From NCBI GenBank assembly GCA_947258875.1, contig CAMYKB010000033.1, positions 1-55,204 of the forward strand: a stretch of 55,204 nucleotides of DNA, read 5' to 3'. How positions within the stretch are numbered: the stretch's first letter is position 1; every line of letters begins with the position of its first letter. Positions 19,387 through 35,644 of the stretch are shown here, one piece after another. This stretch comes from an uncultured Gammaproteobacteria bacterium. Lineage in GTDB: Bacteria > Pseudomonadota > Gammaproteobacteria > CAMYKB01. A program made the position numbers and the translations under genes. The notes beneath the pieces were generated by a model. It was not told the origin of the DNA. It did no database searches and saw only the letters and a list, made by a program, of their open reading frames with translations.

Positions 19387-20133
19387 CTATCCTGCCTGCG
19401 CATAAACCTCTTCCGAAATATCAGCATTGGAATAAACATTCTGTACGTCATCGAGGTCTTCCATCATATCCAGCATACGTAACACCTTCTCCCCATCCTC
19501 GCCACTAACTGCGATCTCGTTCTCGGCGCGCATCGTCACCTCGGCATGTTCAGGCGCCAGACCGGCCTGCGTCATTGCATCTTTCACGGTCACAAAATTT
19601 TCCTCCGTGGTCAACACCTCGATAGCGCCCTCATCATCAGTCACCACGTCATCGGCACCGGCATCCAGGCCAGCCTCCATGATGGCATCTTCATTAGCCC
19701 CGACCGGGTAGCTCAGCACCCCCAGCTTGGTGAACATATAGGCCACCGAGCCAGTGGTACCTAGATTACCGCCACTCTTACTAAAGGCATGCCTGACCTC
19801 TGCAACGGTGCGGTTACGATTATCGGTCAGGCAATCCACCATTATCGCAATGCCGCCAGGACCATAACCTTCATAACGGATTTCCTCGTAATTCACGCCT
19901 TCCAGTTCGCCGGCACCGCGTTTGATCGCGCGCTCGACAGTGTCCTTAGGCATATTCGCCGACAGACCCTTGTCGACAGCCAGACGGAGACGCGGGTTAG
20001 CATTGAGATCCGAACCACCCATACGCGATGCCACCGTGATTTCGCGGATCAAGCGGGTGAATAATTTACCGCGTTTATTATCCTGGGCCTTTTTACGGTG
20101 CTGGATATTGGCCCACTTACTATGTCCTGCCAT
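19387..20133 (-). CDS. yebC: YebC/TACO1-family protein
   Basis: A 248-aa YebC family member beginning [18 protein letters not shown], the nearly invariant family start. Members act as transcriptional regulators in some bacteria, and recent work on the family links YebC2 forms to translation of proline-rich stretches. Acidic C-terminal domains follow. The conserved neighbours ruvC, nudB and aspS fit a gammaproteobacterial YebC. Confidence 0.95.
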
Positions 20134-20215
20134 TGATCACTCTCGATTCTATTTCACATTATTTGATCAGTTTACCACCTCAATCACAGGCATTATATGA
20201 TCTCGGCGTCGCGCC

Positions 20216-20471
20216 AAGGAATCTCTCATTAATTCCATCCTTAGGTCCGCAAACAGCGCATCCATACGCTACTACCCATAGATGGCTGCGTTGCGCGCCA
20301 AATCGCCCACTTTCGCGTTGCGAATCTTAGCAATAGCTTATTCTTGTTTACAGGGACGCAGGTAAGGGGCGTGAGCAGGATGCGATAAGGCTTAGCTGCG
20401 ATCCGCACCTTGAATTGGGGGATTTTGCATCACAGATCATTCCGCCTAGAACTCATCAGAGGTCCCTTAAG
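20216..20471 (-). repeat. Dispersed repeat copy A, with one 48-bp module
   Basis: This fills most of the gap after yebC. Ends: AAGGAATCTCTCATTAATTCC at the left, and at the right CTCATCAGAGGTCCCTTAAGG, which reads inward as AGGGACCTCTGATGAGTTC. On the minus strand its interior closely matches the copy at 50461-50718 (GATGCAA(A/T)ATC..CCA, GCATCCTGCTCACGCCCCTT). It matches the copy at 43833 beyond the module (ATTGC(T/G)AAGATT(C/T)GCAAC). One copy of the 48-bp module lies at 20350-20397. Its outer end contains the stop codon of the hydrolase gene. Confidence 0.8.
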
Positions 20472-21093
20472 GCTCAAAATCACCCTTTTTCAGAAAGCTG
20501 CAAATGGCAGCAGCGACCTGTGTTGAAAACAGCATCCCGGAATGCCCATAGGGCACTGTTAAATGCATACTGACATCCGCAGAACGTGTTTCTGCAAGCG
20601 CCACCGTACCATCACTGGGCTGTTGCAGATTACCGAACAGCAAGCCGCCGATTCCCATACGCCGGCTACCGGCGATCATGCCCAACTGACTGTGCCCTTT
20701 CCAGCGCGGCACATCACCGAGCAGGCCCTGCTGGATGCTCTTGCCCAGCAGCGGACATAACAACATATTTCGCGACATACCCCTTGCCACTTCACTGCCC
20801 TTGATAGGGGTACCCATCATCACCACCCTGCCCGGTTTCTGCACCGGCATGAGGTCGAATAGATGCAGCACAACCAAACCACCCAGGCTGTGTGCGACCA
20901 GATGAATAACTTCTACATCAAGACGGTTCAAAAGTTCCTGCAGGCGCTGCGCATTGGCGCGTGGTGACAGCAGCAGGCTGCGATTCTGGAAATAATAACA
21001 ATCATAGCCCTGCCCTGCGATATACCGGCGCAACAACAGAAACTCCCACGCCGGCATCCAGATACCGGGAACAAAGACCACCGCTTCACGCAT
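20467..21093 (-). CDS. Alpha/beta hydrolase (esterase/lipase-like)
   Basis: A 208-aa cytosolic alpha/beta hydrolase. The nucleophile elbow is HLVAHSLGGLV, an oxyanion region appears as VFVPGIWMP, and the remaining triad is likely the Asp in SDGTVAL and the His in PYGHSGM. The ATG at 21093 overlaps the nudB stop by 8 bases and is preferred to an earlier start at 21147 inside nudB. The substrate is unknown. The last codons, ending TAA at 20467-20469, lie in the end of a repeat element, so the original C-terminus may have been altered. Confidence 0.8.
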   Translation of the reverse strand: MREAVVFVPGIWMPAWEFLLLRRYIAGQGYDCYYFQNRSLLLSPRANAQRLQELLNRLDVEVIHLVAHSLGGLVVLHLFDLMPVQKPGRVVMMGTPIKGSEVARGMSRNMLLCPLLGKSIQQGLLGDVPRWKGHSQLGMIAGSRRMGIGGLLFGNLQQPSDGTVALAETRSADVSMHLTVPYGHSGMLFSTQVAAAICSFLKKGDFEP

Positions 21094-21565
21094 ACTCGCT
21101 CTCTTGTCCCGCATCGGCAGGATCAGGAACCCATTCAAGTATGGCATCGCGGTTAGTATGCGAACTCGCCAACTGCGCAGCTTCTTGTTTGCTCAACCAG
21201 CAATAATCCTGGTGCTCGCGCCCATCAAGGAGTACGGCAGTTGGCGCAGGCAACTGCAGGCAAAACACGTGTTCACAGTTTTCGGAGGTGCCCGGCGCGT
21301 AACGATGCCGCCACATGGGATAAATCGTAAAGTAATGGGATTGATTACAATCACTCAGATCGGCGGCCTCTAAACCCGTTTCCTCCATGAGTTCACGACA
21401 CGCCGCTTGCCAGGTCGTCTCACCCCATTCCAGGCTGCCGGTAACGGATTGCCAAAAGTCAGCAGGCTGTTTACGCCGCAGCAGCAGAACCTCAGATTGT
21501 ACGGTGTGCACAATAACGAGCACCGATTCGGGGCGTTTATGCATGCTGGAGCAGGTGTTTGTCAT
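21086..21565 (-). CDS. nudB: NudB, dihydroneopterin triphosphate diphosphatase
   Basis: A Nudix hydrolase of 159 aa for the folate pathway. The Nudix box reads GSLEWGETTWQAACRELMEE followed by TGL. RPESVLVIVHT at the start and YCWLSKQEA near the end match NudB. An internal ATG at 21544 (MHKRPESV) would fit most homologues better than 21565. It sits in the conserved aspS-nudB-yebC-ruvC neighbourhood, but a plus-strand gene has been placed between it and aspS. Confidence 0.9.
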   Translation of the reverse strand: MTNTCSSMHKRPESVLVIVHTVQSEVLLLRRKQPADFWQSVTGSLEWGETTWQAACRELMEETGLEAADLSDCNQSHYFTIYPMWRHRYAPGTSENCEHVFCLQLPAPTAVLLDGREHQDYCWLSKQEAAQLASSHTNRDAILEWVPDPADAGQESEYA

Positions 21566-21664
21566 GGCTGGTCAGTCTGCCTCATGGGTAAGACTGTGAT
21601 CAACCATAATAATAATTAAATTCAATGCTTCCCAAACGGACGTGAAGAGGCGAGAATTTACCCC

Positions 21665-22882
21665 ATGAAACGACAAAAACGCCATTCTATCGGGTTAGTT
21701 CCCGGTTTTTTACTGTTGCTGCTCGCCACTCAGCTTATAAGCTGCGTCACTCAAGAAACCAGGCAGGGGCCAACACCCTTGAGTGAGGCCGAAATCAACA
21801 TCCAGCTGGCCCTACGACATCTGCGCGACGATGAGGTAGAACAAGCGCTGGCGCGGGTCAATCAGGCTCTCAAGCAGGAGCCTGAGCTGGTGAGCGCTAA
21901 CAGTCTAGCCGGGCTGTTATATGAAAAAATTGATCGCCCGGATGTGGCCGCCAGTTTCTTCCAGAAGGCCATCATGCTGGCTCCACATGATGCGGCGGTG
22001 CGTAACAACTACGGCAAATTGCTGTGCAACCTGGGGCGTCTGCAAGAGGCTGACGCCGAATTCATGCAGGCAGCCCGCAGCCCCGGCAACCGCTCGCCAG
22101 AAATTGCCTACACTAATGCGGGCCTGTGTGCGCTACGTGCACCTGATCCTGGGCGTGCCGAAACTAACTTTATCGCTGCATTACAAGCCAATGCGAACAT
22201 GCCCGTCGCCCGTTATCAACTCGCGCACAGCTATCAACAACAAGGACGGCACATTCAAGCTCAGAACGAACTGCGGCAGTATCTTGCAATTGCCGAGCAC
22301 ACCGCACAGACGCTCTGGCTGGCCATCATTATCGAACGTGGCCTTGGTAATAACGATGCGGTCGAACTGTACAGTCAGCAACTGAAGCTTCAGTTTCCCG
22401 ACTCTGATGAATACCTATTATTGATGCAAACAGAAGCACAGCCGGTGTATGCCCACAGCGCACCGCCAGCAAACAACGACCTGAGGGCAGCTAGCACAAG
22501 CAACATCACAGCCAGTGCCACTGCGCTAATTGACCAACAATCCATCCGTAAGAAACCAAACAAACCCCTACAAAAAAAGGCATGGCTACTGGCACAAGAC
22601 CCACGGCATTACACCGTTCAATTGATGTCTGGAAGTAATGAAAGCGCAATAAAGCGTTTTTACGAGCAAAATCAGTTACCTCAACAGATCGCCTACTATG
22701 CGATCAAGAATAAAGATTCGCTTTGGTACACCATGCTGTATGGAAGTTTTTCGGGATTCAGCAAGGCACGTGAGGCAATCAATCAATTACCAGTGAACTT
22801 ACGCAACAAACAGCCCTGGGTTCGTAGCTTCGACAGTATCCAGAAAGAAATTCGCGCCAATCAATCGGCGGTCGCCGAATAA
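21665..22882 (+). CDS. PilW/PilF-like TPR lipoprotein with a C-terminal SPOR domain
   Basis: A 405-aa lipoprotein with the lipobox TQLISC (Cys about 27). Residues 45-255 are TPR repeats resembling PilW/PilF, the pilotin that brings the PilQ secretin to the outer membrane (AEINIQLALRHLRDDEVEQA, NNYGKLLCNLGRLQEADAEF, ARYQLAHSYQQQGR). After a low-complexity linker comes a SPOR-like domain (HYTVQLMSGSNESAIKRFYE, WYTMLYGSF, LRNKQPWVRSF), which normally binds septal denuded peptidoglycan. PilF proteins are usually about 250 aa without SPOR, so this is a fusion. Its stop is five bases from the aspS stop, tail to tail. Confidence 0.8.
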   Translation: MKRQKRHSIGLVPGFLLLLLATQLISCVTQETRQGPTPLSEAEINIQLALRHLRDDEVEQALARVNQALKQEPELVSANSLAGLLYEKIDRPDVAASFFQKAIMLAPHDAAVRNNYGKLLCNLGRLQEADAEFMQAARSPGNRSPEIAYTNAGLCALRAPDPGRAETNFIAALQANANMPVARYQLAHSYQQQGRHIQAQNELRQYLAIAEHTAQTLWLAIIIERGLGNNDAVELYSQQLKLQFPDSDEYLLLMQTEAQPVYAHSAPPANNDLRAASTSNITASATALIDQQSIRKKPNKPLQKKAWLLAQDPRHYTVQLMSGSNESAIKRFYEQNQLPQQIAYYAIKNKDSLWYTMLYGSFSGFSKAREAINQLPVNLRNKQPWVRSFDSIQKEIRANQSAVAE

Positions 22883-22887
22883 TCTAC

Positions 22888-24666
22888 TTATGCGTCTTTT
22901 TCCTTGCGCCGTATACGCAGATTCAGTTCCTTTAGTTGCGTCTCACTGACATCTGAAGGCGCATTAGTCAGTAGGCAATTGGCCGTCTGGGTCTTAGGAA
23001 ACGCCATCACATCACGGATCGATTGTGAGCCCGTCAACAACATCACCAGCCGATCGAGACCAAAGGCAATACCACCGTGCGGCGGGCAGCCAAATTCTAG
23101 CGCCCTAAGCAGAAAACCAAATTTATCTTCGGCTTCTTCATCGCTGATACCCAACAACTTAAACACCCGTGTCTGCACATCAGAACGGAAAATACGCATC
23201 GAGCCACCTCCGACTTCGGTACCGTTGAGTACCATGTCATAGGCGCGCGAATGACACATACCGGGATCGGTCTCCAGCTTGTCCAGATGCTCCTCACTGG
23301 GTGAGGTGAAGGGGTGGTGCAGCGATATCCAGCGGTTTGACTTGTCATCCCACTCAAACATCGGAAAGTCCACTACCCATAATGGTCGCCAGCCGTGCTC
23401 CACTAGGCCACGATCATGACCCAGCTTGACGCGCAGCGCGCCCAGGGATTCGTTGACGATGGATGTCTTGTCAGCGCCGAAGAACACCAGGTCACCATCT
23501 TCGGCCGCGGTGCGTTGCATAATGGTATCCACCACATCGTCGGGCAAGAACTTGAGGATCGGTGATTGCAGGCCTTCGCGGCCCTTCGCGAGTTCATTAA
23601 CCTTGATATAGGCCAACCCTCGGGCGCCATAGATGCTGACGAATTTGGTGTAATCATCTATTTCCTTACGTGTGAGTTCACCACCTTGTGGCAGCCGCAA
23701 GGCTGCGACACGGCCATTGGGGTCATTGGCCGGGCCGGCAAACACCTTGAATTCCACACCCGCCATCACGTCACCGACATCGACCAATTCCAGCGGTATC
23801 CGTAAATCGGGTTTATCAGAACCAAAGCGCAACATGGCTTCAGCGTAGCTCATGCGTGGGAACGGTTCCGGCAGCGCCTCACCCAGTACCTTGGCAACCA
23901 CTTCACGGATCATGTCTTCCATCAACCACATCAACTGGTCCTCGTCCATGAACGAGGTCTCGATATCCAGCTGAGTGAATTCTGGTTGACGGTCAGCGCG
24001 CAAATCCTCGTCACGAAAACAGCGCACCACCTGATAGTAACGATCCATACCCGACATCATAAGTAACTGTTTGAACAGCTGCGGTGACTGCGGCAATGCA
24101 AAAAATTCACCGTGATGAACTCGGCTTGGAACCAGATAGTCGCGCGCACCTTCGGGGGTAGCACGAGTCAACATCGGCGTTTCGATATCCATAAAGCCGT
24201 TGTCATCCAGGTAATTGCGCAGCACCCGGGTTATCTCCGAGCGAATAAGCAGACGCTGTTGCATCTCCGGTTTGCGCAGATCGATATAGCGGTAGCGCAG
24301 GCGGATCTCTTCGTTGACATCGTCATCGTCAAGCTGGAAAGGCGGCGTTTCGGCCCTGTTAAGAACCTCCAACTCCAGCCCCAGAACTTCGATCTTGCCA
24401 GTCGGCAGATCCGGATTCACTGTACCTTCGGGGCGGGGGCGCACCTTGCCCTTCACACGTAACACATACTCATTACGTACCTGCTCGGCGACCGCGAATA
24501 CCTCTGGGCGATCCGGGTCGAACACTACCTGCACCAGTCCTTCGCGGTCACGCAGATCGATAAAGATCACCCCGCCGTGATCGCGGCGGCGATTCACCCA
24601 GCCGCTCAGTTCGACTTCCTGATCCAAAAGGGTCTCGTCTACAGCCCCGCAATAATGACTACGCAT
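22888..24666 (-). CDS. aspS: AspS, aspartyl-tRNA synthetase
   Basis: A class II synthetase of 592 aa, the bacterial length with the GAD insertion domain. An N-terminal OB fold binds the anticodon ([20 protein letters not shown]). Motif 2 is [18 protein letters not shown] and motif 3 is [13 protein letters not shown]. Both discriminating and non-discriminating forms exist; I cannot decide between them by eye. It lies downstream of the DUF502 gene on the same strand. Confidence 0.97.
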
Positions 24667-24772
24667 GGTCTTGTCCTGATCACTCGATTTATAAAATATG
24701 GGTTTTGCCCAACTTCCAGCTTTAATAGGCTATTTTCAGTGAATTAGCGCAGCTACGGCAAAGGCGGGAATC

Positions 24773-25402
24773 TTACGGGTTGGGGTCAATAGGCGCAACA
24801 TCATTGCCGTTGCCGCTGCCGGGTGACACCACCCCCAGCGACATAATCATCTTTAGCCCCTCCTCGACATCCATATCCAGTTCTATGGTGTCGTCTTTGG
24901 GGACCACCATGATAAACCCGGAAGTGGGATTGGGTGTGGTAGGCACAAATACCGTAACCACCTCGCGACTGGTTTTATCCTGTAACTCCTGAGGACTGGT
25001 AGCGGTCTGGAAACACAGGGTCCAGATACCCGTGCGCGGGTACTGGATCAACAATACCTTGCGGAAAGACTCGCTGCCAGTCGATAGCAGGCCGTGTAAC
25101 ACCTGTTTCACTGCGGAATAGATACTCCTAACCAGCGGGATTCTTGCCAGCAAGGACTCCCAGGCGCCGACCAGTTGCCGGCCCAGAATATTGGCGGCCA
25201 GGATCCCGGTAACAAACAGCACGATGAGTGAGAGCAGCAGGCCCAGGCCAGGAATATGGAAGCCCAACAAGGCGTCCGGGCGCCAGGCAGGCGGCAACAA
25301 TAGCAAGCTGCGATCCATCAAATCGACCAACAGTTTGATGACAAACACCGTTATTCCCAGAGGTACCCACACCAACAACCCCGCGATCAGATAACGGCGC
25401 AT
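24773..25402 (-). CDS. DUF502 family membrane protein
   Basis: A 209-aa inner-membrane protein with two strong helices (YLIAGLLVWVPLGITVFVI and GLGLLLSLIVLFVTGILAA). The conserved DUF502 features RIPLVRSIYSAVKQV and FVPTTPNPTSGFIMVVPKDD follow. The function is unknown. It stands between fmdB and aspS, an arrangement common in Gammaproteobacteria. Confidence 0.88.
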   Translation of the reverse strand: MRRYLIAGLLVWVPLGITVFVIKLLVDLMDRSLLLLPPAWRPDALLGFHIPGLGLLLSLIVLFVTGILAANILGRQLVGAWESLLARIPLVRSIYSAVKQVLHGLLSTGSESFRKVLLIQYPRTGIWTLCFQTATSPQELQDKTSREVVTVFVPTTPNPTSGFIMVVPKDDTIELDMDVEEGLKMIMSLGVVSPGSGNGNDVAPIDPNP

Positions 25403-25440
25403 TTCAAATCCCGCCCATAGGACTGTGCCCTAATCGGTGA

Positions 25441-25743
25441 CTAGCTGGCACTGGAGGATTTCTTAGCGGAACTTGGTGATGAGTTCGTTGGCGAGGCAGT
25501 CTTGTCCTGGCTGGAGGAAGGGGCACCCGCGTCTTTCTCGGCCAGATTGCGCTTCTTACCACCGCTTTTAAAGTCGGTTTCATACCAACCCTTACCACTA
25601 AGTCTAAAGCCCGCCGCCGAGATCAGCTTCCTGAGCTCGGGCTTTTCGCAGGCAGGACAATCCCTTAGCGGCATATCACTCATCTTCTGTATGACCTCAT
25701 GAACAGAGCCACAGGCATCACATTCATATTCGTAGATGGGCAT
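25441..25743 (-). CDS. FmdB-family zinc ribbon protein
   Basis: A 100-aa protein starting MPIYEYECDACGSVHEV. The zinc ribbon is CDACG and CPACE. AGGAG precedes ATG 25743; the frame continues upstream to 25806 but without family similarity. The C-terminal half is a Ser/Lys-rich, probably disordered tail. It was named for similarity to a putative formamidase regulator; the real role is unknown. The fmdB-DUF502-aspS order is conserved. Confidence 0.88.
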   Translation of the reverse strand: MPIYEYECDACGSVHEVIQKMSDMPLRDCPACEKPELRKLISAAGFRLSGKGWYETDFKSGGKKRNLAEKDAGAPSSSQDKTASPTNSSPSSAKKSSSAS

Positions 25744-25832
25744 CAACTCAACTCCTAAACTTGGCCAAGACGTCGGATTATATTGGGGCAATACGCTGTA
25801 TACCAACCCCGACAGGGCACTACACCATAAAA

Positions 25833-25855
25833 AAAGCGGCCCACAGGGCCGCTTT
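25833..25855 (-). terminator. Terminator after the DUF5666/DUF6502 cluster
   Basis: AGCGGCCC (25835-25842) pairs with GGGCCGCT (25846-25853) around loop ACA. On the minus strand it is followed by a run of Ts. It lies about 30 bases past the stop of the last cluster gene. Confidence 0.85.
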
Positions 25856-25882
25856 CCTTCCCCCTCACACCTTTCGGTGCGC

Positions 25883-27346
25883 TTAATCTTCGAGCTCGAG
25901 CTGGTCTAGCGGGGCGGCTACGTCGACGAACGCATTCCAGCGGGCCTCAACCACGGTCTGATTATCCACCAGGGCAGCAAAGAAATCGTTCTGGTTGATA
26001 GTCGCATCACCGAAGCCCTCATAGTTGGTATTGCTATCCGCTGTGAGCGCGACATCCAGAATAGTGAGCGTTAGGGTACTGCCCGACAAATTGATATTGC
26101 TGACAGGTCCCCGCAACTCAACCCGGCCTGATATATCCTCACGACGGACCTCGGTGGCTATGAAGTCTGGGCCATCAATGAACCCATTCACTTGAAGCTC
26201 ATCTCCATCCGCAATATCAGCGAACGTGAATGGATCGATATCAGCGCTGCTGTTGTCCTCCAGTTCCGCATCCAGTGCGAACTTAACCGGGATGCCCAAC
26301 AGGGTCAGCGTACGATCAGTCGCATTAATGCTGCCTGGATCGACAGTGGCCTGGATGCGGAATTCGTTGTCCTCAAATTCGATCTCGTCGGCAACCAGCA
26401 CATCATTGACAAATACACCCTCGACTTCGAGCCGCGCGCCCTCTGCAATATTAGCCACCGAGCCGCCTTCAAACTGGGTCGAATTGGTAATAGACACAGG
26501 CACGTTATCAATTTCGAAACCGCCCGGCAATCCGGCATCAGAGGTCACGATACCTTCAATTTCCACTTCATCGTCTTCAACGGCATCGAGCCCTGCCTCG
26601 GCCTCAACCTTTGATGCCAAAAGAGTCTGGGTTGTAGGATTGTAATCCGCCTTCAGGCCCTTGACCTCAACCAACAGGTCATCGGTTGGCACACCACCAG
26701 GCAAGTTATCCAGTGTCGCCACACTATAATCCACCGTCAAACCATCTATTGTGAACTCGGTACCGCCGGAATTGCGCACCACCCCAACGACCTTGTAGTC
26801 GTCAACTTGTGTAGGATCCTTTATCTCAATGTAGGTCGCCACGATATGGTCGTTGTTGTCACGCAATCCACTGACCTCCAGCACATCGCCAACCTGAACC
26901 GTACTCATATCAAACGCAACGCTGTTATTGGATCCGGGAGACGTCCCATCGTCTAGCACGGTCATGCCATTCACTTGCACCATTTGCCCCATCACGACCA
27001 GCTCGCCGGTGGTTGCATTAAATTCAACATCAACCGGCCCTTTAACCGTTTCGTCGTATTCGACCGTATCGGCAGTCAGGCTATCGGAATCACCCGCGAT
27101 ACGCACCACCTGGCCCACCTTCAAATCGGTTTGTGCCGCAGTTTGACCATCAATGGTAAACGTTGCAGCATTTGTATCGAATCGAGTGCCGTTTAGTATG
27201 ACGCTACCAAAACCTGTAATTGGGCCATCGCTGACGATGCCGCTGCCACTGATATCCGCCAACGGACCACTACTACCGCCGCAGGAGGCAAGTATCATCA
27301 CCACCATAAAAGCATAAACACTATTCAAAAACCGGTTCATTATCAT
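25883..27346 (-). CDS. DUF5666-like repeat lipoprotein (first paralogue)
   Basis: A 487-aa exported protein with the lipobox MILASC. The mature part is acidic and all-beta in appearance, with six tandem units of about 65-75 residues. Unit starts are at GPITGFGSVILNG, GPVDVEFNATTG, VVGVVRNSGG, VEIEGIVTSD, RIQATVDPGS and VELRGPVSNI. Each unit ends in a phrase of the type V.G...VEV.G......A..IE. It is very similar in plan to the protein at 28286-29764. The start overlaps the DUF6502 stop by 4 bases. The function is unknown; a surface or periplasmic adhesive or binding role is only a guess. Confidence 0.8.
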   Translation of the reverse strand: MIMNRFLNSVYAFMVVMILASCGGSSGPLADISGSGIVSDGPITGFGSVILNGTRFDTNAATFTIDGQTAAQTDLKVGQVVRIAGDSDSLTADTVEYDETVKGPVDVEFNATTGELVVMGQMVQVNGMTVLDDGTSPGSNNSVAFDMSTVQVGDVLEVSGLRDNNDHIVATYIEIKDPTQVDDYKVVGVVRNSGGTEFTIDGLTVDYSVATLDNLPGGVPTDDLLVEVKGLKADYNPTTQTLLASKVEAEAGLDAVEDDEVEIEGIVTSDAGLPGGFEIDNVPVSITNSTQFEGGSVANIAEGARLEVEGVFVNDVLVADEIEFEDNEFRIQATVDPGSINATDRTLTLLGIPVKFALDAELEDNSSADIDPFTFADIADGDELQVNGFIDGPDFIATEVRREDISGRVELRGPVSNINLSGSTLTLTILDVALTADSNTNYEGFGDATINQNDFFAALVDNQTVVEARWNAFVDVAAPLDQLELED

Positions 27347-28194
27347 TTCTCCGTCTGGCTGCCGTCCGCTGCGTCACTCCCGGCGGGTTCGACAAACTCT
27401 TCAAATTCATAAATACCGACACCCAGTCTTGCTCTGGATACCCCTTGCAAATTCTCTTCACTGCCCCGATCACGTTCGGCCAGCCATTGATCGATTTCTT
27501 CGAGTGTGCGCTGGCCAAGTTTTGCACTCAACTGACGGAACTCACCGATGTACTCCACCGGCACATTGCGGAACTGGGCGCTACGCTGGAAGCGCTTCTC
27601 ATCGGCAGCGCAATTCATATTGTGTCCGATGGTATCAATCAGATCGGCAGTATGAGCACCAAGGAATTGCACAACTTCTGACCCGCCAGTACTGGGAATA
27701 TAACCATGGGCCATCAATTTGAGCCGGCTGTCTTCAGCAAGTTCAATTGCACCAACGCGTTGTAATTCATCTGCAACAGCGCGTGGCGGCATATCACCGC
27801 TGTACTTTTTGACAAGCTCAGAAAAACTTCCTTTGCCTTCAAATGGCAGCGGCATCGGGTCGCCGACATCATTATGGTAGGCCGGATCACGGAACCATGC
27901 CGTGGCGATACGTGCGGCGCGGTTATGCCGCTCGTCCAAACCGGTCGATTCCAGCGGCGGCAAACTTTTAACCCTCGAAACTTCCTTGCGATTCAAACCT
28001 GTCAACACAGATACCCGCGAAACTGACTGCTTGCGTCCATCAACGTGGAACTCATTGTCTGCCACATCAACATAAACACGTTTTAGTATTTCGGCAAAAG
28101 CGCCATAGGACATGCCATGTTGCAACATGATTTTCACCAACGGCCTTAGCAGCCGTGCAATTGCCTCAGTAATGACTTTTGAATGAACCTGCAT
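27343..28194 (-). CDS. DUF6502-like protein with helix-turn-helix-like N-terminus
   Basis: A 283-aa protein without signal peptide. Residues 10-75 look like a winged helix: LLRPLVKIMLQHGMSYGAFAE, then SVSRVSVLTGLNRKEVSRV, which reads as a recognition helix. The middle and C-terminal parts are helical (FSELVKKYSGDMPPRAVADE, RTLEEIDQWLAERDR), with an acidic tail. It resembles the DUF6502 family from memory. A regulatory role is inferred from the N-terminus and from its place between two DUF5666 genes. AAGGA precedes ATG 28194. Confidence 0.75.
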   Translation of the reverse strand: MQVHSKVITEAIARLLRPLVKIMLQHGMSYGAFAEILKRVYVDVADNEFHVDGRKQSVSRVSVLTGLNRKEVSRVKSLPPLESTGLDERHNRAARIATAWFRDPAYHNDVGDPMPLPFEGKGSFSELVKKYSGDMPPRAVADELQRVGAIELAEDSRLKLMAHGYIPSTGGSEVVQFLGAHTADLIDTIGHNMNCAADEKRFQRSAQFRNVPVEYIGEFRQLSAKLGQRTLEEIDQWLAERDRGSEENLQGVSRARLGVGIYEFEEFVEPAGSDAADGSQTEK

Positions 28195-28219
28195 ATCAAC
28201 ACAATCCTTTGATCTACAT

Positions 28220-28250
28220 CCCGGAGGACATTATACGTCTGCCCTCCGGG
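28220..28250 (-). other. Intergenic hairpin between the second DUF5666 gene and the DUF6502 gene
   Basis: CCCGGAGG (28220-28227) and CCTCCGGG (28243-28250) are exact complements around a 15-base loop. No T run follows on the minus strand, so it looks more like an mRNA processing or attenuation hairpin than a terminator. The loop includes a TATAAT-like string. Confidence 0.45.
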
Positions 28251-28285
28251 AATATCCTGTCATTAACAACAATCAGATCAGCACA

Positions 28286-29764
28286 CTAGTCATCACTGCC
28301 ATCTTCACTTTCGATTTCGAGCTCAGTGGCCGGACCCGTGACATCCACGAAGGGATCCCACTTCACTTTTACTATCATGCCTTCAGCCAGGTACCCGAAA
28401 AAGTCTCCCGCTAGAACACTTTCAACCTCATCGATTTCATACTCGGTCCCAGCGTCGACGGAAACCGTAATACCCAGCAAAGTCACTGTCATGTTGTTTA
28501 CATCAAATGCGTCCACCGGGCCTTGCAAAGTTGCACTGGTATCAGCTTCATCGCGCTCCAGTCGTGTAGCGATAACAACATCGCCTTCGACATAGCCCTT
28601 CACCTCAACCCGGTCACCTTCAGCAAGATCAGAGATATCGAACATTCTCTCTTCATCGCGATCATCACGCACCCGTGTTTGATCATTGATCGCTACTGTG
28701 ATTCCGAGCAAGGTGATCGTTCCATTATCAGCATCAATCGCCTCAATATCTGCCTCAATCTTGACGTCATTGTCGAACTTGAATTCCACTTCATCGGCTT
28801 GCAGAACGCCATTGTCATCCAGATAACCTTCAACCTCGAGCTTGACACCTGGCTGGATATCATCTGCCACGCCACCCTCAAAGCGGGTGTTGTCATCTGT
28901 GCTGACAGGAATACCATTGATTTCAAACTCAGTGGCCGAGGTAACCACCGTCACATAACCCTCGATTTCTATCTCGCTACCCTCATCAGCATCTTCATGA
29001 ACGGCATGTTTTTGCTGTACCTTGGTGGCTACAAGATAAGGTGGAGGATTACTATAATCATTGCTATCACCCTTCACTGAGACCAACATGCCATCACTTA
29101 ACACGCCGTCGGTAATGTTGGTCAGATTTGCCGCGCTATAGTTTACTGTCAAACCGGAGATCTTGAATTCGAATAACGAGGTATCCAGATCGCTGATGGA
29201 TCCAATTACTTTGTACTTCGGCAGCGCGTCTTCCAGCTCAATGAAACTGGCTACGATTTCTCCGGCATCATTTCGCAAACCACTTACTTCGACCAGGGTG
29301 CCCTCCATAAGGCTGAGAAAATCAGTCTCATGAAAAACCGTCATTTCATCAGTGAGTACCGTTTGACCAAGAACGACCAAAGTATCTGTTGATGGATCAA
29401 TGGATTCGATGGGTCCCTTTACCGTTTCTTCAACCTCGATTTCATCGGCAACACCCTCAGCGTGGTCACCCATCACCGTCACGATCATGCCGACTTCAAG
29501 TGCCGATTCATCAACTTCTACGTCATCCGCAATGACCTTGGCGTTTGACGTATCGAAACGCATGCCATTGACATAGACACTGCCAAAACCCGTAATGGCA
29601 CCAACGCTGACATCATTTGGATTAGTAGCAGCTGTCGTACTTCCACCACCACCACAACCAGCAAGGAACAGAGGCGCAGCGATTGCAAATCCGGCCAAAA
29701 TAGTGAGACTGATCATCACAAATTGCCGCAGATAGAACATACTGCTATGGACGAGATTTTTCAT
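28286..29764 (-). CDS. DUF5666-like repeat lipoprotein (second paralogue)
   Basis: A 492-aa exported protein with the lipobox PLFLAGC followed by GGGGS. It has six units that correspond one-to-one with those of the protein at 25883-27346: GAITGFGSVYVNGMRFDT, GPIESIDPSTD, VIGSISDLDT, IEIEGYVTVV, KIEADIEAID and LQGPVDAFDV. Both proteins end in a related WDPF/WNAFVDV segment and an acidic tail. A whole-gene duplication flanking the DUF6502 gene is therefore likely. It is the first gene of the cluster, about 80 bases from its predicted promoter. Confidence 0.8.
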   Translation of the reverse strand: MKNLVHSSMFYLRQFVMISLTILAGFAIAAPLFLAGCGGGGSTTAATNPNDVSVGAITGFGSVYVNGMRFDTSNAKVIADDVEVDESALEVGMIVTVMGDHAEGVADEIEVEETVKGPIESIDPSTDTLVVLGQTVLTDEMTVFHETDFLSLMEGTLVEVSGLRNDAGEIVASFIELEDALPKYKVIGSISDLDTSLFEFKISGLTVNYSAANLTNITDGVLSDGMLVSVKGDSNDYSNPPPYLVATKVQQKHAVHEDADEGSEIEIEGYVTVVTSATEFEINGIPVSTDDNTRFEGGVADDIQPGVKLEVEGYLDDNGVLQADEVEFKFDNDVKIEADIEAIDADNGTITLLGITVAINDQTRVRDDRDEERMFDISDLAEGDRVEVKGYVEGDVVIATRLERDEADTSATLQGPVDAFDVNNMTVTLLGITVSVDAGTEYEIDEVESVLAGDFFGYLAEGMIVKVKWDPFVDVTGPATELEIESEDGSDD

Positions 29765-29843
29765 GAGGTTACTCCCATAATCTTATTCAGGGTTAAGACC
29801 GAATCCTTGTCAGGGGCCTGGCATCAACACACACCAGAATGAT

Positions 29844-29878
29844 ATTGGGAAAATATTCCCAATCTACATGTTTGTCAA
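29844..29878 (-). promoter_or_regulatory. Promoter with palindromic operator for the DUF5666/DUF6502 cluster
   Basis: On the minus strand, TTGACA (complement of 29873-29878) stands 17 bases before TATTTT (complement of 29850-29855), a good sigma-70-type pair. The -10 lies inside the perfect inverted repeat ATTGGGAA (29844-29851) / TTCCCAAT (29856-29863), an operator-like arrangement that would let a bound protein block RNA polymerase. The regulator is unknown. Confidence 0.65.
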
Positions 29879-30004
29879 TATCTTTTTATGAGAACCAGTA
29901 CCAATTCCAGAATACTTCTACAGCCATCAAGGCCCTCCAAGCAGGCTTGATAGATCACAGAACGGTGAATTAATTCAACAATTACAGAAGGTTAAGTGGA
30001 CTAT

Positions 30005-30853
30005 ATGACAGCAAAGCACTCAGGGCGCAGCATATTAATCACCGGTTGTTCCAGCGGCATTGGCCTTTGTGTGGCTAGCGGCCTGAAACAACGCGGCTAC
30101 CGTGTGTTTGCCACAGCCAGGAGACAGACCGACGTCGAACGACTGACAACAGCGGGGCTCGAATCCCTGCAATTGGATCTTGATGATAGCGCCTCAATCG
30201 CCACCGCTGTCGACAAGGTCTTGGAACGTACCGGGGGCAAACTGGATGCCTTGTTCAACAACGGCGCCTATGGTCAGCCAGGTGCGATTGAAGATTTAAG
30301 TCGCGAGGTGCTACGCGCACAACTCGAAACTAATCTACTGGGCTGGCTTGAATTGACTAACCTGATCATTCCGGTGATGCGCAAACAAGGCCATGGACGC
30401 ATCATCCAGAACAGCTCAGTGCTGGGGTTTGCAGCACTCCCTTTTCGCGGCGCCTACAATACCAGCAAATATGCCCTCGAGGGCATGACCGACACCCTGC
30501 GCCTGGAACTACGCGGCAGCGGCATCCACGTCTCTTTGGTAGAACCTGGGCCGATCGAAAGCCGCTTCAGGGCTAACGCCCATACCGCGATGCAAAAAAA
30601 CATCGATATCGAAAACAGCGTTTACCACCATCGTTACAAGGCCACGATAGAACGCCTCAGCAAGGAGGGACCGGCAGTCCCCTTTACGCTGCCGCCGCAC
30701 GCAGTGCTTAAACGCGTGATTCATGCCCTGGAGAGCCGCAGTCCAAAGCCTCGTTACTATGTAACCTTTCCGACCTATTTGTTTGGTTACCTGAAACGTG
30801 CCATATCAACACGCATGCTGGACACAATTCTCATGAAGCTCGCGGGATCCTGA
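30005..30853 (+). CDS. Short-chain dehydrogenase/reductase
   Basis: A classical SDR of 282 aa. The nucleotide-binding motif is TGCSSGIG, the NNGA motif is NNGAYGQPG, and the catalytic Ser and Tyr-x-x-x-Lys are in NSSVLGF and YNTSKYALEG. The C-terminal region (RARYYVTF-like, GYLKRAISTRML) resembles SDRs annotated as acting on lipids or retinol-like alcohols, but the substrate cannot be told. AGAAGG at 29986-29991 fits neither the GTG at 29996 nor the ATG at 30005 perfectly; the ATG is chosen. Confidence 0.85.
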   Translation: MTAKHSGRSILITGCSSGIGLCVASGLKQRGYRVFATARRQTDVERLTTAGLESLQLDLDDSASIATAVDKVLERTGGKLDALFNNGAYGQPGAIEDLSREVLRAQLETNLLGWLELTNLIIPVMRKQGHGRIIQNSSVLGFAALPFRGAYNTSKYALEGMTDTLRLELRGSGIHVSLVEPGPIESRFRANAHTAMQKNIDIENSVYHHRYKATIERLSKEGPAVPFTLPPHAVLKRVIHALESRSPKPRYYVTFPTYLFGYLKRAISTRMLDTILMKLAGS

Positions 30854-31018
30854 GTCCAGGCAAACACATCGGCAACCCAAAGAAGCTTGGATGAACTCAT
30901 GACTGCCGGCCAGGTGCTCGAAATCAATCGGGACTTGCTAGCACCGCTGCAGACTTAATGGGCACTGGAATTGTGAGAATCTTTATATACTAAAGAACAT
31001 GGCCTTGGCGTCGAAAAC

Positions 31019-31684
31019 TCAGGACCCGCGCTCAACAGGAAGCCCTGCGAGTTGCCATTCAGGATAACCGTCTTCAAGACGTCGCGCCTTGAAACCATAC
31101 TCGCGCAGACGGCTGACTGCATCATAGGCCAACACGCAGTACGGTCCGCGGCAATAGGCAACCACTTGTTCATTGAGCTGAAAGTGATTCAAATGTGCTT
31201 CCAGCTCCGCGAGAGGAATATTGATGGCGCCAGGCAAATGCCCCGCCGCAAATTCCTCGGCGGGCCGTACATCCAGAACCGTCACCGTGCCATTACGAGC
31301 ACGTTCCAGCAGCTCAGTTGCTGGCACGGGTTCCAGTGAATCCTTTTCTCTCAGGTACTGTGCAACCAGGCGGTCTACGTCTGCCAGACGTTGTTCAGCA
31401 ACACGCCGCAGACTATCCAGCAAAGCGATAACATCGTCACCCGCCAGTCGATAAAGCACCTGTTGGCCTTGCTTGCGACCGATAACCAGACCAGCCTGCT
31501 TCAGGTGCTGCAAGTGCTGGGATGTGTTGGCAACGGACAAACTCGACACCTGCGCTAGGGCTTCCACTCCCCGCTCTCCCTGGGCCAGGAACTCCAGCAA
31601 TTCCAGACGGTTAGCATTCCCCAACGCCTTGCCGACACGTGCAAACTGGGAGAACAGCTCCTGTTTGAAGTTACCACTGGACAT
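31019..31684 (-). CDS. ArsR-family regulator fused to a rhodanese domain
   Basis: A 221-aa fusion. Residues 1-105 are an ArsR winged helix (ALGNANRLELLEFLAQGERG, SLSVANTSQHLQHLKQAGLV as recognition helix). Residues 115-221 are a rhodanese domain with the active-site loop YCRGPYCVLA. The ArsR part has no cysteines, so metal sensing by the usual CxC sites is unlikely. Sensing or transfer of sulfane sulfur by the rhodanese cysteine is a reasonable inference. It diverges from the membrane-enzyme genes starting at 31794, with an operator-like palindrome between. Confidence 0.9.
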   Translation of the reverse strand: MSSGNFKQELFSQFARVGKALGNANRLELLEFLAQGERGVEALAQVSSLSVANTSQHLQHLKQAGLVIGRKQGQQVLYRLAGDDVIALLDSLRRVAEQRLADVDRLVAQYLREKDSLEPVPATELLERARNGTVTVLDVRPAEEFAAGHLPGAINIPLAELEAHLNHFQLNEQVVAYCRGPYCVLAYDAVSRLREYGFKARRLEDGYPEWQLAGLPVERGS

Positions 31685-31707
31685 GATCTAATACCTCATC
31701 TTAATTA

Positions 31708-31729
31708 TATTCAATAAATCAATTGAATA
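31708..31729. promoter_or_regulatory. ArsR-type operator palindrome
   Basis: TATTCAAT (31708-31715) and ATTGAATA (31722-31729) are perfect inverted arms with a 6-base AT-rich spacer, in the divergent region between the ArsR-rhodanese gene and the desaturase-like gene. TTCAAT-N6-ATTGAA resembles operators known for ArsR/SmtB proteins, so autoregulation and control of the divergent operon are likely. Confidence 0.6.
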
Positions 31730-31793
31730 ATTTATATATACAGTTTAGCCTTATAAGTCACTATTACAAGCCCCACAGCTCGAGTATCAGCAC

Positions 31794-32612
31794 ATGGCAA
31801 TAAGCGACACCATCAACAACTATGAAATGATCATCCGGCTCGGCGCCTTCTTTGGCGTGTTTGCCATTATGGCAACATGGGAAATACTGTCTCCACGCCG
31901 TGCGCTGACACAATCAAAACCGGCACGCTGGCTGAACAACCTCAGCCTGGTTGCGCTGGATACCCTCCTGGTGCGTATGCTACTTCCGGCGACCGCTGTG
32001 AGCATCGCGCTGCATTCACAACTCCAGGACTGGGGACTGTTGAATATTATCGAGCTACCGTTTTGGCTGGGTGTAGTCATAGCCATCATCGTCATGGATT
32101 TCGCCATCTACCTGCAGCATGTGATGTTTCATGCTCTGCCCATGCTATGGCGTCTGCATCGCGTTCACCATGCGGACCTGGATTTCGACCTCACCACTGG
32201 CAGCCGTTTTCACCCCATCGAAATCCTGTTATCGATGCTGATTAAATTTACGGTCATTATTTTGCTCGGCCCACCAGTAGTTGCCGTGTTGTTATTTGAA
32301 ATACTCCTCAACGGTATGTCGATGTTCAATCATAGTAACGTGCGTCTAGTACATCACTCCATCGAAGATGACGAAACCAACAGCAATTTCGGCTTCAACC
32401 TGTCATGGTGTGACAAACTGTTTGCCACCTACCATCAACAGCCCCGCGCCGGCCATGAGAACATGACCATAGGCATTCGCGGATTCCGCGACAGCAGGCA
32501 CTGCATCAACCTGGCGGGCTTGCTGTCATTGCCCTTTATCGGCAAAGTGACGGGTTATGCGATAAACCGTCGCCAATGGGATGAGGATGATGGAAAAACA
32601 GCCGGCAAATAG
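31794..32612 (+). CDS. Sterol desaturase / fatty acid hydroxylase family protein
   Basis: A 272-aa integral membrane di-iron enzyme. The histidine clusters typical of the family are HVMFHAL, RLHRVHH, FHPIE, HSNVRLVHH and TYHQQP. Four hydrophobic helices lie in the first 170 residues. The substrate is probably a lipid or other hydrophobic compound, unidentified. It overlaps the next gene by about 30 bases, so the two form an operon diverging from the ArsR-rhodanese regulator. Confidence 0.85.
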   Translation: MAISDTINNYEMIIRLGAFFGVFAIMATWEILSPRRALTQSKPARWLNNLSLVALDTLLVRMLLPATAVSIALHSQLQDWGLLNIIELPFWLGVVIAIIVMDFAIYLQHVMFHALPMLWRLHRVHHADLDFDLTTGSRFHPIEILLSMLIKFTVIILLGPPVVAVLLFEILLNGMSMFNHSNVRLVHHSIEDDETNSNFGFNLSWCDKLFATYHQQPRAGHENMTIGIRGFRDSRHCINLAGLLSLPFIGKVTGYAINRRQWDEDDGKTAGK

Positions 32613-33579
32613 AAACAAAATTCTGCGTATCAGTCTACTTGTCCTACTGGCTATTGGTATCACCTTAGCAATTACCTACCGGGATCTATTTAATGAAGAG
32701 GCCCTGACTCAATGGGTTAACAATGCTGGTGCGGCGGCACCCGTTTTGTTCATCATAATTTATGCGCTGGCGGCCGTGTTGTTCCTGCCCGGTTCGTTGT
32801 TAACGCTTGCTGGTGGCGCACTGTTCGGCCCAGTATGGGGTACATTGTATAACCTCACTGGCGCAACCATCGGTGCCACATTATCCTTTCTGGTATCGCG
32901 TTATCTCGCCGCCGACTGGGTGACCCAGAAAACCGGCGGGCGTTTAAAGCAATTGATCGATGGCGTTGAGAACGAGGGTTGGCGCTTCGTTGCGTTTACG
33001 CGTCTGGTGCCCGTGTTCCCCTTCAATCTGTTGAACTATGCCCTGGGGCTGACACGCATACCTTTGTTGCATTACGTCCTCGCAACCTTTATCTGCATGT
33101 TCCCCGGCGGCCTGGCATACACCTATCTTGGTTATGTCGGCCGCGAAGCCCTAAGTGGTGATGAAGCCGTGATTCAAAAAATACTTCTGGCGCTGGCGTT
33201 GTTGGCAGTCGCAATCTTCCTGCCCAGATTTATTAAGCGCTTGCGCCAACCATCCATCCCATTGTTAACAGTCGATGAACTTCGACAACGCTTGGCCGAT
33301 GGCACTGAGACACTAGTACTGGACATGCGCTCAGCGGATGAATTCAGCGGCGAATTGGGGCACATCAAGGACGCCATGAATATCCCGGTTGAATCGCTAC
33401 GCAAACAACTTCAGCAACTGGATGCCTTCCGCAACCAGCCGATAGCCATCATCTGTCATACGGATCGCAGGTCCAAGCATGCTGCGCAACTCCTGGCCGG
33501 AGCCGGTTTCACACGTCTTGCGATCGTCACTGGCGGCATGGTGAAATGGCACCAGCACGATTTTCCAGTAGAAGCCTAA
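32581..33579 (+). CDS. TVP38/TMEM64 (DedA-like) membrane protein fused to a rhodanese domain
   Basis: A 332-aa fusion. Residues 1-210 are a TVP38-type membrane domain, with the hallmarks VLFLPGSLLTLAGGALFGP, GATIGATLSFLVSRY and FTRLVPVFPFNLLNYALGLT. Residues 220-332 are a rhodanese domain with the active cysteine in ICHTDRRS. An ATG at 32590 may be the true start. The gene shares its last 4 bases, tail to tail, with lutC. The rhodanese domain links it functionally to the divergent ArsR-rhodanese regulator; the transported or processed compound is unknown. Confidence 0.88.
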   Translation: MRMMEKQPANRNKILRISLLVLLAIGITLAITYRDLFNEEALTQWVNNAGAAAPVLFIIIYALAAVLFLPGSLLTLAGGALFGPVWGTLYNLTGATIGATLSFLVSRYLAADWVTQKTGGRLKQLIDGVENEGWRFVAFTRLVPVFPFNLLNYALGLTRIPLLHYVLATFICMFPGGLAYTYLGYVGREALSGDEAVIQKILLALALLAVAIFLPRFIKRLRQPSIPLLTVDELRQRLADGTETLVLDMRSADEFSGELGHIKDAMNIPVESLRKQLQQLDAFRNQPIAIICHTDRRSKHAAQLLAGAGFTRLAIVTGGMVKWHQHDFPVEA

Positions 33580-34220
33580 GCTATCAACAACACATGCAGG
33601 CGGCGTGGTCCGTGCGCACCCAGTTGAATGGTCTGCTCGACATCGGCAGTACGTGAGGGGCCGGTAATAAAATTCACCGTCCGCGGCATATCGATGCCCT
33701 GTTGTTGCAGCAATGACCAGACATCTTCCATGTGAGTTACGATTTGAGACGCCCGCACCACCACCACGTGATCGTCGGGGAGAAAATTCAAAGAAGTTGG
33801 GCTTTCACGACTTGATAACAGCACTACACTGCCAGTCTCGGCAACAGCGGCAAAACAGGGCGTAACACTTATATTGTGTTCACCATGTGTCGGCCCAAAC
33901 TCAAGCTCCAGCCCATCAGGCCATGACAGGTTACTAAGAACAGGTGCTATAACAATACCTGACCCTGCATTATGCACCTCAATATATTTCGTAATCGCCG
34001 CGGGCACAGCGTTGATACTGGATAGCTGCTCAACTGTGGCACCCGCGTGTTGCAGCTTGTGGATAAATCGCACAGCGGGCTTGTCTAAGATCATTGGCAA
34101 GGTATGTCGCCGCGCATTATTGAGTCTTTGCGTGGCTGACTGCAGCTGTTCTAACGGCAACTTATCCCGGCCCAGTGAGCGGCGCAACTGCCGAAGAATG
34201 CTCGCCCGTGCATCACCCAT
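33576..34220 (-). CDS. lutC: LutC-type LUD domain protein
   Basis: A 214-aa LUD (YkgG) protein, third subunit of the LutABC complex that oxidises L-lactate to pyruvate. Family features are SLNFLPDDHVVVV, NFITGPSRTADVEQTIQLGA and HGPRRLHVLL. The N-terminal region RQLRRSLGRDKL is typical. It begins at the base where the lutB stop ends, so the genes are translationally coupled. Confidence 0.9.
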   Translation of the reverse strand: MGDARASILRQLRRSLGRDKLPLEQLQSATQRLNNARRHTLPMILDKPAVRFIHKLQHAGATVEQLSSINAVPAAITKYIEVHNAGSGIVIAPVLSNLSWPDGLELEFGPTHGEHNISVTPCFAAVAETGSVVLLSSRESPTSLNFLPDDHVVVVRASQIVTHMEDVWSLLQQQGIDMPRTVNFITGPSRTADVEQTIQLGAHGPRRLHVLLIA

Positions 34221-35644
34221 CAGCGTTGCTCTCCGTTACGTCGTCGCCACGCAGAAACAAATGTTTCCCCCTGGGGCGCCGGCAAATCACGGCTCTCAGT
34301 CCAACCTCGTGCAAACGGCATAGCACGGAAATACCCCTTACCACAGCTCATTCCGGCAAGTACCCGGATCTTGATATCAGCAAGAAAGCGATACAAGCGT
34401 GGATGTTTGGCAAACCAGGCCCATAGCCGCAACGCCCAGCGTTCGTGGCGCGGACCCAGACCGGTCTCGAATTGCTGTCGCCGCAGGCCGCGCAACATCT
34501 CAGGCAACGGAATACCCATCGGGCAAACCTGTTGGCAACGACCATTGAGAGTGCAGGCATTCGGCAGATCACCACTTGTCTTTACACCCAGCATCAGCGG
34601 CGTGAGCACCGCCCCCATCGGACCAGGATAAACCCAGCCGTAGGCATGCCCGCCCACGGCACTGTATACGGGGCAATGGTTTAGACAGGCTCCACAGCGG
34701 ATGCAGTGCAACATATCGCGGAATTCATTACCCAACATGTCGCTGCGCCCGTTATCAAGCAGCACCACATGGTATTCCTCTGGTCCGTCAAGATCGCCAT
34801 CACGCCTGGGGCCGGTACTAAAGGTGGTATAGCTGGTAATTTCCTGCCCGGTGGCGCTACGCGCCAACAGACGCAGTAGAGTGCTCGCATCATTTAGCGT
34901 AGGCACAAGCTTGTCGATCGCCGCAATCACAATATGCACCCTGGGAATCGAGCAGGAGAGATCACCATTGCCCTCATTGGTAACGATGATGTTAGAGCCG
35001 GTTTCAGCAATCAAAAAATTGGCGCCGGTAATCCCTACATCCGCTGTCAGAAACTGGTCGCGCAGCACCTGTCGCGCCTCATTGACAATTGCCGGAATCT
35101 CGGTCTGCCGTTCGGCATAACCCAGAGCAGCATGATGCGTATGGAATAAATCAGTGATCTGTTCTTTGGTCTTGTGTACCGCAGGCGCAATGATATGACT
35201 GGGCGCCTCCCTGGCGAGTTGAATAATGTATTCACCAAGGTCGGTTTCGATCACTTCAAATCCAGCTGCTTGCAGGGCGTCGTTTACCGCAATCTCCTCG
35301 CCCACCATGGATTTACCCTTGGCAATACGTCTGGCATTGGTGCCCAGGCAAATATTGACAATTGCCTTGCAGGCGTCTTCCGGTGTACGCGCCCAATGCA
35401 CATGCCCGCCACGTTGCTCAACCTGTTGCTCGTAGTGCTCAAGATAGACATCCAGATACTCAAGGCTATGCTCCTTGATCGCCCTGGCATCTGCCTGTAA
35501 TTTCTCAAATTCAGGTAGCGCGTTTACTGCCGCTGCACGTTTGTCGACAAAACCGCCCCTGGCTTTGGCTAGCGCGCGCTGCAAAGTTTCATCATGCAAT
35601 GCCACCCTGGTATTGTGTTTGAATAGGTGGGTGCTGCTGTCCAC
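34220..35644 (-). CDS. lutB: LutB-type iron-sulfur protein with LUD domain
   Basis: A 474-aa protein. The N-terminal LUD domain includes GITGANFLIAETGSN and TNEGNGDLS. Two 4Fe-4S clusters are bound by CIRCGACLNHCPVY and CTLNGRCQQVCPMGIP. The C-terminal extension (WAWFAKHPRLYRFL and following) matches LutB. It would pass electrons from lactate within the LutABC complex. Its ends touch lutA and lutC. Confidence 0.94.
   Translation of the reverse strand: MDSSTHLFKHNTRVALHDETLQRALAKARGGFVDKRAAAVNALPEFEKLQADARAIKEHSLEYLDVYLEHYEQQVEQRGGHVHWARTPEDACKAIVNICLGTNARRIAKGKSMVGEEIAVNDALQAAGFEVIETDLGEYIIQLAREAPSHIIAPAVHKTKEQITDLFHTHHAALGYAERQTEIPAIVNEARQVLRDQFLTADVGITGANFLIAETGSNIIVTNEGNGDLSCSIPRVHIVIAAIDKLVPTLNDASTLLRLLARSATGQEITSYTTFSTGPRRDGDLDGPEEYHVVLLDNGRSDMLGNEFRDMLHCIRCGACLNHCPVYSAVGGHAYGWVYPGPMGAVLTPLMLGVKTSGDLPNACTLNGRCQQVCPMGIPLPEMLRGLRRQQFETGLGPRHERWALRLWAWFAKHPRLYRFLADIKIRVLAGMSCGKGYFRAMPFARGWTESRDLPAPQGETFVSAWRRRNGEQR

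Follow-up and report, generated by a model that had tools for sequence, protein, structure and literature searches.

Autoregulated repressors of the TetR or lambda CI style act on operators that lie over their own promoters. An operon comparable with these systems is found in contig CAMYKB010000033.1 of an uncultured Gammaproteobacteria bacterium (assembly GCA_947258875.1), the whole analysed stretch of 55,204 nt being referred to here as the window. It encodes a DUF6502 protein between two DUF5666 lipoproteins. From sequence comparison, we consider it most likely a self-regulated envelope lipoprotein operon, in which DUF6502 would be a dedicated autorepressor acting on a palindrome in its own promoter. 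The locus shares with the TetR or lambda CI style a local regulator, a palindrome over the -10 box, co-transcribed targets and some targets in trans. Two features set it apart from them: the overall fold of DUF6502 has no convincing solved match, and a leaderless start at the edge of the operator, as predicted here, is unusual. Local autoregulators are a known kind of system. What we did not find described are DUF6502 as a regulator family, its operator, a promoter that is centred on this operator and has a predicted leaderless start, and the link of a peptide motif to unrelated envelope proteins. Our literature search returned no paper naming DUF6502 and only passing mentions of DUF5666, in lists; it gave no description of the palindrome as operator of the DUF6502 family, nor of the motif GGIGGTG in this setting. 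The Pfam entry for DUF6502 (PF20112) is a family of unknown function, for which an operator and regulated genes are proposed here.

The operon is transcribed from the minus strand in the order P0003, P0002, P0001, terminator. From promoter to terminator, its features are the following.

29873-29878, minus strand: -35 box TTGACA (consensus match), at a position relative to the palindrome that is constant in relatives.
29843-29864, unstranded: palindromic putative operator, reading GATTGGGAATATTTTCCCAATA on the minus strand, proposed DUF6502 binding site (weight matrix and genome scan).
29850-29855, minus strand: -10 box TATTTT (consensus match), in the palindrome centre, 17 nt from the -35 box.
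29772-29776, minus strand: GGGAG, probable ribosome-binding site for P0003 (read from the sequence).
28286-29764, minus strand: first lipoprotein, P0003, 492 amino acids (aa), lipobox LAGC, DUF5666, six tandem predicted oligonucleotide/oligosaccharide-binding (OB) fold units, without the motif GGIxGTG.
27343-28194, minus strand: DUF6502 protein, P0002, 283 aa, predicted helix-turn-helix (HTH) at residues 58-77 and winged HTH at 124-160, proposed autorepressor.
25883-27346, minus strand: second lipoprotein, P0001, 487 aa, lipobox LASC, DUF5666, degenerate motif DISGSG.
25829-25857, minus strand: intrinsic terminator, a hairpin with a T run behind it (RNA folding).

The P0002 stop and the P0001 start overlap by 4 nt. 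The terminator region (25815-25882) folds with -32.8 kcal/mol (z -3.9); the terminator was seen by folding and not picked up by a simple consensus scan. An Rfam search of positions 20000-35000 matched 0 families. The initial annotation had described three open reading frames (ORFs) on one strand with a strong terminator behind them, and all of this was borne out.

The palindrome TTTGGGAATATATTCCCAAA is present in the promoters of DUF6502 operons from several phyla and reads ATTTGGGAATATATTCCCAAAT when aligned over loci. The first clue to it came from over-long DUF6502 ORFs that open with peptides like GNIIPN, which are the translated palindrome. Using a weight matrix (score of at least 12, within about 380 nt of the operon start), a site was found in 72 of 79 loci, compared to 13 matches in 1.1 Mb of the same contigs. 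DUF6502 proteins were separated into clades A and B by profile score, not by tree; among clade-A loci outside the training set, the site is present in 23 of 36, versus 5 of 961 control windows. For 13 operons that begin with a DUF5666 gene, the DNA further upstream was retrieved as well; 11 of them had the site there, several with a second copy before DUF6502. The site in the window is located 79-100 nt 5' of the P0003 start codon, and positions 29845-29862 constitute the sole exact TTGGGAA-N4-TTCCCAA in the 3.0 Mb genome. Matches to this pattern with two mismatches are no commoner in the genome than those to a control pattern.

In the window, and as an aligned feature of the loci, the -10 box coincides with the palindrome centre and TTGACA lies 17 nt away. 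In 46 of the 102 clade-A loci whose operon starts with DUF6502, a gap of 0-3 nt separates the end of the 22-mer from the following ATG, and a -35 box (at least 5 of 6 matches to TTGACA) is found 16-18 nt from the palindrome centre in 43 of these 46. Such start-codon loci leave no room for a ribosome-binding site, so that the mRNA is expected to begin at the AUG or directly beside it. Their promoter geometry thus predicts a leaderless mRNA. Since the site is upstream of the expected transcript in this class, a role at the RNA level is unlikely. The window operon is not leaderless by prediction, with a 5' leader of about 80 nt.

The form of the site follows the DUF6502 clade. The core is GGGA-N6-TCCC in 77 clade-A loci and GGGA-N5-TCCC in 16 of the 16 clade-B loci that have a core (Fisher test, 2.8e-16). 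The clade-B flanks differ too, being GTGGGA or ATGGGA, and about 0.6% of background windows contain either core spacing. Sites also occur in trans. Unlinked DUF5666 genes for pure OB arrays have the site in DUF6502-positive genomes (L132, L133, L134, L136, L137, L140, L145, L146, L176 and L191) and lack it in DUF6502-negative genomes (L128, L130, L138 and L141). Unlinked mosaic proteins, which combine DUF5666 with Calx-beta, DUF4382 or DUF2807, are without the site. This distribution suggests that the pure OB arrays are the DUF5666 proteins under DUF6502 control. Exact sites number 10 in 75 DUF6502-positive genomes versus 6 in 199 DUF6502-negative genomes, 2 of these 6 being in a single genome, G185. 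Moreover, two related genomes have a principal (clade-A) DUF6502 gene without DUF5666 beside it, and in both a remote exact site, together with a -35 box, lies at the start codon of a gene for a beta-propeller lipoprotein. Conservation, spacing covariation and trans sites together strongly suggest that the palindrome behaves as the DUF6502 operator.

DUF6502 probably binds as a dimer to this 20-22 bp palindrome, whose GGGA-N6-TCCC core is centred on the -10 box. Bound there, it would cover the -10 box and block RNA polymerase. The position of the palindrome over the -10 box makes repression the likeliest effect, and the DUF6502 gene and the lipoprotein genes would be repressed together. The operon would be kept off until some condition relieves repression, and its coupled downstream gene would provide a lipoprotein for export to the envelope, which in the window is an array of six predicted OB folds. 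DUF6502 might instead bind the palindrome and activate transcription, or alternate between both effects, for instance by remodelling an otherwise poor promoter. The minority of loci with a site more than 100 nt 5' of the first start codon, where TTGACA at the fixed spacing is rarer, would suit an activator. However, in the window and in most start-codon loci the -10 box forms the palindrome centre and a near-consensus -35 box is 17 nt away, an arrangement typical of repressors, and we regard activation as unlikely. It is still less probable, indeed very doubtful, that the palindrome belongs to another, wider regulator with DUF6502 as a mere passenger or co-factor. Some DUF6502 loci lack the site, which speaks for such a regulator, but the site spacing shifts with the DUF6502 clade, exact sites concentrate in DUF6502-positive genomes, and DUF6502 is, besides the lipoproteins, the sole conserved gene in these loci.

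Several observations nevertheless weigh against the autorepressor reading. About one sixth of clade-A loci and half of clade-B loci have no recognisable site. G185, an incomplete genome (81% complete), has a site before DUF5666 and no detected DUF6502. The far-upstream sites could permit activation, and no sensor domain or inducer is evident for DUF6502. Finally, the loci share ancestry and are not independent, and the p-values given here overstate the strength of the associations.

Additional palindromes were observed near other genes. At three loci of a gammaproteobacterial lineage (L098:12342, L101:2431 and L105:11494), a second strong palindrome with its own TTGACA precedes the gene of a 352-aa protein weakly like MobB, which is followed by an ATP-binding cassette (ABC) exporter gene. 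The regulated set may therefore reach beyond lipoproteins. Single extra sites were found near a PKD/cadherin-like protein gene (L055:3049), a multihaem cytochrome gene (L109:17537) and an oxidoreductase gene (L119:2982); each is one case and may be due to chance. At L150:4186-5997, a gene for a sulfatase-modifying-factor-like protein separates two palindromes from DUF6502, and a lipoprotein gene runs divergently on the opposite side.

The two families are closely associated across genomes. Among 274 class-level genomes, 63 contain both, 12 DUF6502 alone and 8 DUF5666 alone, while neither is present in 191 (Fisher p 2e-40). In another 200 genomes, sampled at phylum level, DUF5666 occurred in 14 and DUF6502 in 11, with 10 genomes having both. 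In 71 of 80 named DUF6502 loci (Gammaproteobacteria, Nitrospirota, Thermodesulfobacteriota, SAR324 and others), a DUF5666 gene is located directly 3' of DUF6502 on the same strand, and the commonest junction is a 4-nt overlap (27 loci). The initial annotation had proposed that the regulator and the duplicated lipoproteins form one unit, and had tied this to the genes being neighbours in other genomes, as they indeed are. Co-occurrence and adjacency strongly support the pairing of regulator and lipoprotein, but the core of the unit consists of DUF6502 and one coupled downstream lipoprotein, not of the duplicated pair with the regulator in its middle; the upstream paralogue is optional and arose several times. 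A further conserved partner gene was also considered and rejected, as neighbour clusters beyond both families are sparse or confined to one lineage. Two tandem DUF6502 genes from different clades are present in one genome (G166, L162:4511-6672). At seven thermodesulfobacterial, nitrospirotal and deferribacterial loci (L091, L093, L095, L102, L106, L108 and L113), the operon is followed by a gene for a DUF4382 lipoprotein, which often has DUF5666 units as well.

P0002 matches PF20112 over almost the whole Pfam model (residues 8-271, E 2.9e-79, 266 bits, for a gathering score of 27 bits). Its AlphaFold2 model (mean predicted local distance difference test, pLDDT, 86; predicted template modelling score, pTM, 0.72) is helical, with the HTH at 58-77, the winged HTH at about 124-160 and, at the C-terminus, two long helices. 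As local structural matches only, the HTH part is similar to sigma region 4 and to HTHs of the TetR type, and the second domain to winged helices. Residues R60, R69, K70, E71 and R74, which lie around the second HTH helix, are conserved in DUF6502, and the alignment contains no conserved cysteine. A whole-fold structure search with the P0002 model found no solved structure that matches convincingly. The only near-full-length match was HetR of cyanobacteria (Z 7.7, 223 residues), at a root-mean-square deviation (rmsd) of 10.5 Å. This alignment hints at kinship with HetR, but an hhalign probability of 0.25% indicates no profile similarity and a PDB sequence search gave no support, and we do not claim it. 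The middle gene had previously been guessed to encode a regulator. The predicted HTH and winged HTH, and an operator that covaries with the DUF6502 clade, speak for this guess, regulation itself being what we infer from them. DUF6502 occurs in Gammaproteobacteria and in metagenome-assembled genomes of Nitrospirota and Thermodesulfobacteriota, among others, and its proposed operator, promoter geometry and regulated genes make it a testable regulator family.

Pfam places DUF5666 (PF18914) in five stretches of each lipoprotein (E 2.7e-39 and 2.5e-59; 134 and 198 bits), both above the gathering score of 27 bits, and a broader DUF5666 profile resolves six units in each. P0001 and P0003 are 38% identical across 482 aa, over their full length (E 8e-85). 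Unit-versus-unit alignment gave scores of 113-136 on the diagonal, compared to at most 72 off the diagonal and at most 50 for shuffles. Positional counterparts thus match best, which indicates a whole-gene duplication and not independent repeats. The paralogy of the six-unit lipoproteins, which the initial annotation had read from shared unit sequences, was confirmed by this comparison. In a tree of 91 DUF5666 proteins, P0001 and P0003 fall into a supported clade (98) with DUF6502-flanking pairs from other genomes. The upstream copy arose repeatedly: the tree requires at least 7 changes, and an origin of the upstream DUF5666 genes as a single ancient lineage is thereby ruled out. Each lipobox (LAGC in P0003, LASC in P0001) follows a hydrophobic stretch, as read by eye from the sequences. 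The lipobox signals and the predicted OB-fold architecture are the features that bear on the initial annotation's suggestion of a surface or periplasmic matrix or ligand-binding system.

The P0003 model (pLDDT 87) consists of six tandem OB folds (a fold defined by a barrel of five strands, the third and fourth joined through a helix), and both lipoproteins are predicted to be strings of six such units. The best structural matches to the model are OB-fold chains (Z up to 10.4, 76 residues, 2.0 Å), the nearest folds being OB domains of tRNA synthetases and the periplasmic OB proteins CusF, PilY2 and YgiW (BOF). The last three share the fold of the lipoprotein units by model comparison, with Z of 8.6 to 9.2. 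The Klebsiella lipoprotein KPN03535 is reported to have an OB fold (PMC2954213). YgiW, CusF, PilY2 and KPN03535 are single OB domains, whereas the window lipoproteins are predicted to carry six in tandem. A search of PDB chains with the lipoprotein gave 0 sequence matches. Identification of P0003 with CcmE (PF03100) was rejected, its score of 18.8 bits being below the cut-off of 24.6. DUF5666 proteins gain a proposed regulatory context and a predicted fold from this analysis. A third DUF5666 gene in the same genome (L127:4212-6227, contig C49) encodes a Calx-beta/DUF5666/DUF2807 mosaic of 671 aa and is without a DUF6502 operator.

A short distance behind its lipobox, the protein coupled 3' of DUF6502 has the sequence GGIGGTG or one close to it. 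Of 99 coupled DUF5666 proteins, 87 match a strict form of the pattern, as do 6 of the 7 coupled lipoproteins that do not belong to the DUF5666 set (fn3, Calx-beta and unassigned folds). The pattern occurs in 0 of 18 upstream DUF5666 copies, several of which are cut at the N-terminus, and in unlinked DUF5666 proteins in 2 of 20 cases from DUF6502-positive and 0 of 8 from DUF6502-negative genomes. In the window, only the degenerate form is seen in P0001, and P0003 has none. Third codon positions vary freely across 50 genes; GGIxGTG is a protein motif, and a nucleotide element was rejected. A tag-like motif common to unrelated coupled proteins is a puzzle. It is conceivable, though somewhat doubtful, that GGIxGTG is a sorting or surface-export signal unrelated to regulation, in idea like the lipoprotein export signals of Bacteroidetes. 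Its place just after the lipobox in most coupled lipoproteins, irrespective of fold, is consistent with sorting. However, its absence from upstream copies and near absence from unlinked DUF5666 lipoproteins with similar signals argue against this, as does at least one coupled motif-bearing protein (L170) without a lipobox. With distinctly lower probability, the GGIxGTG peptide, which begins the mature coupled protein near its N-terminus, could be a signal read by DUF6502. An unexported precursor, translated in coupling beside the regulator, would bind DUF6502 and set the expression of the operon. Lipoprotein synthesis would then be matched to export capacity, and the motif would be a product-feedback tag, common to unrelated envelope proteins through their connection to one regulator family.

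Beyond the operon, positions 22888-25806 of the window contain aspS, a gene for a DUF502-like membrane protein and an fmdB-like zinc-ribbon gene. An fmdB-like gene is also found near DUF6502 in L179.

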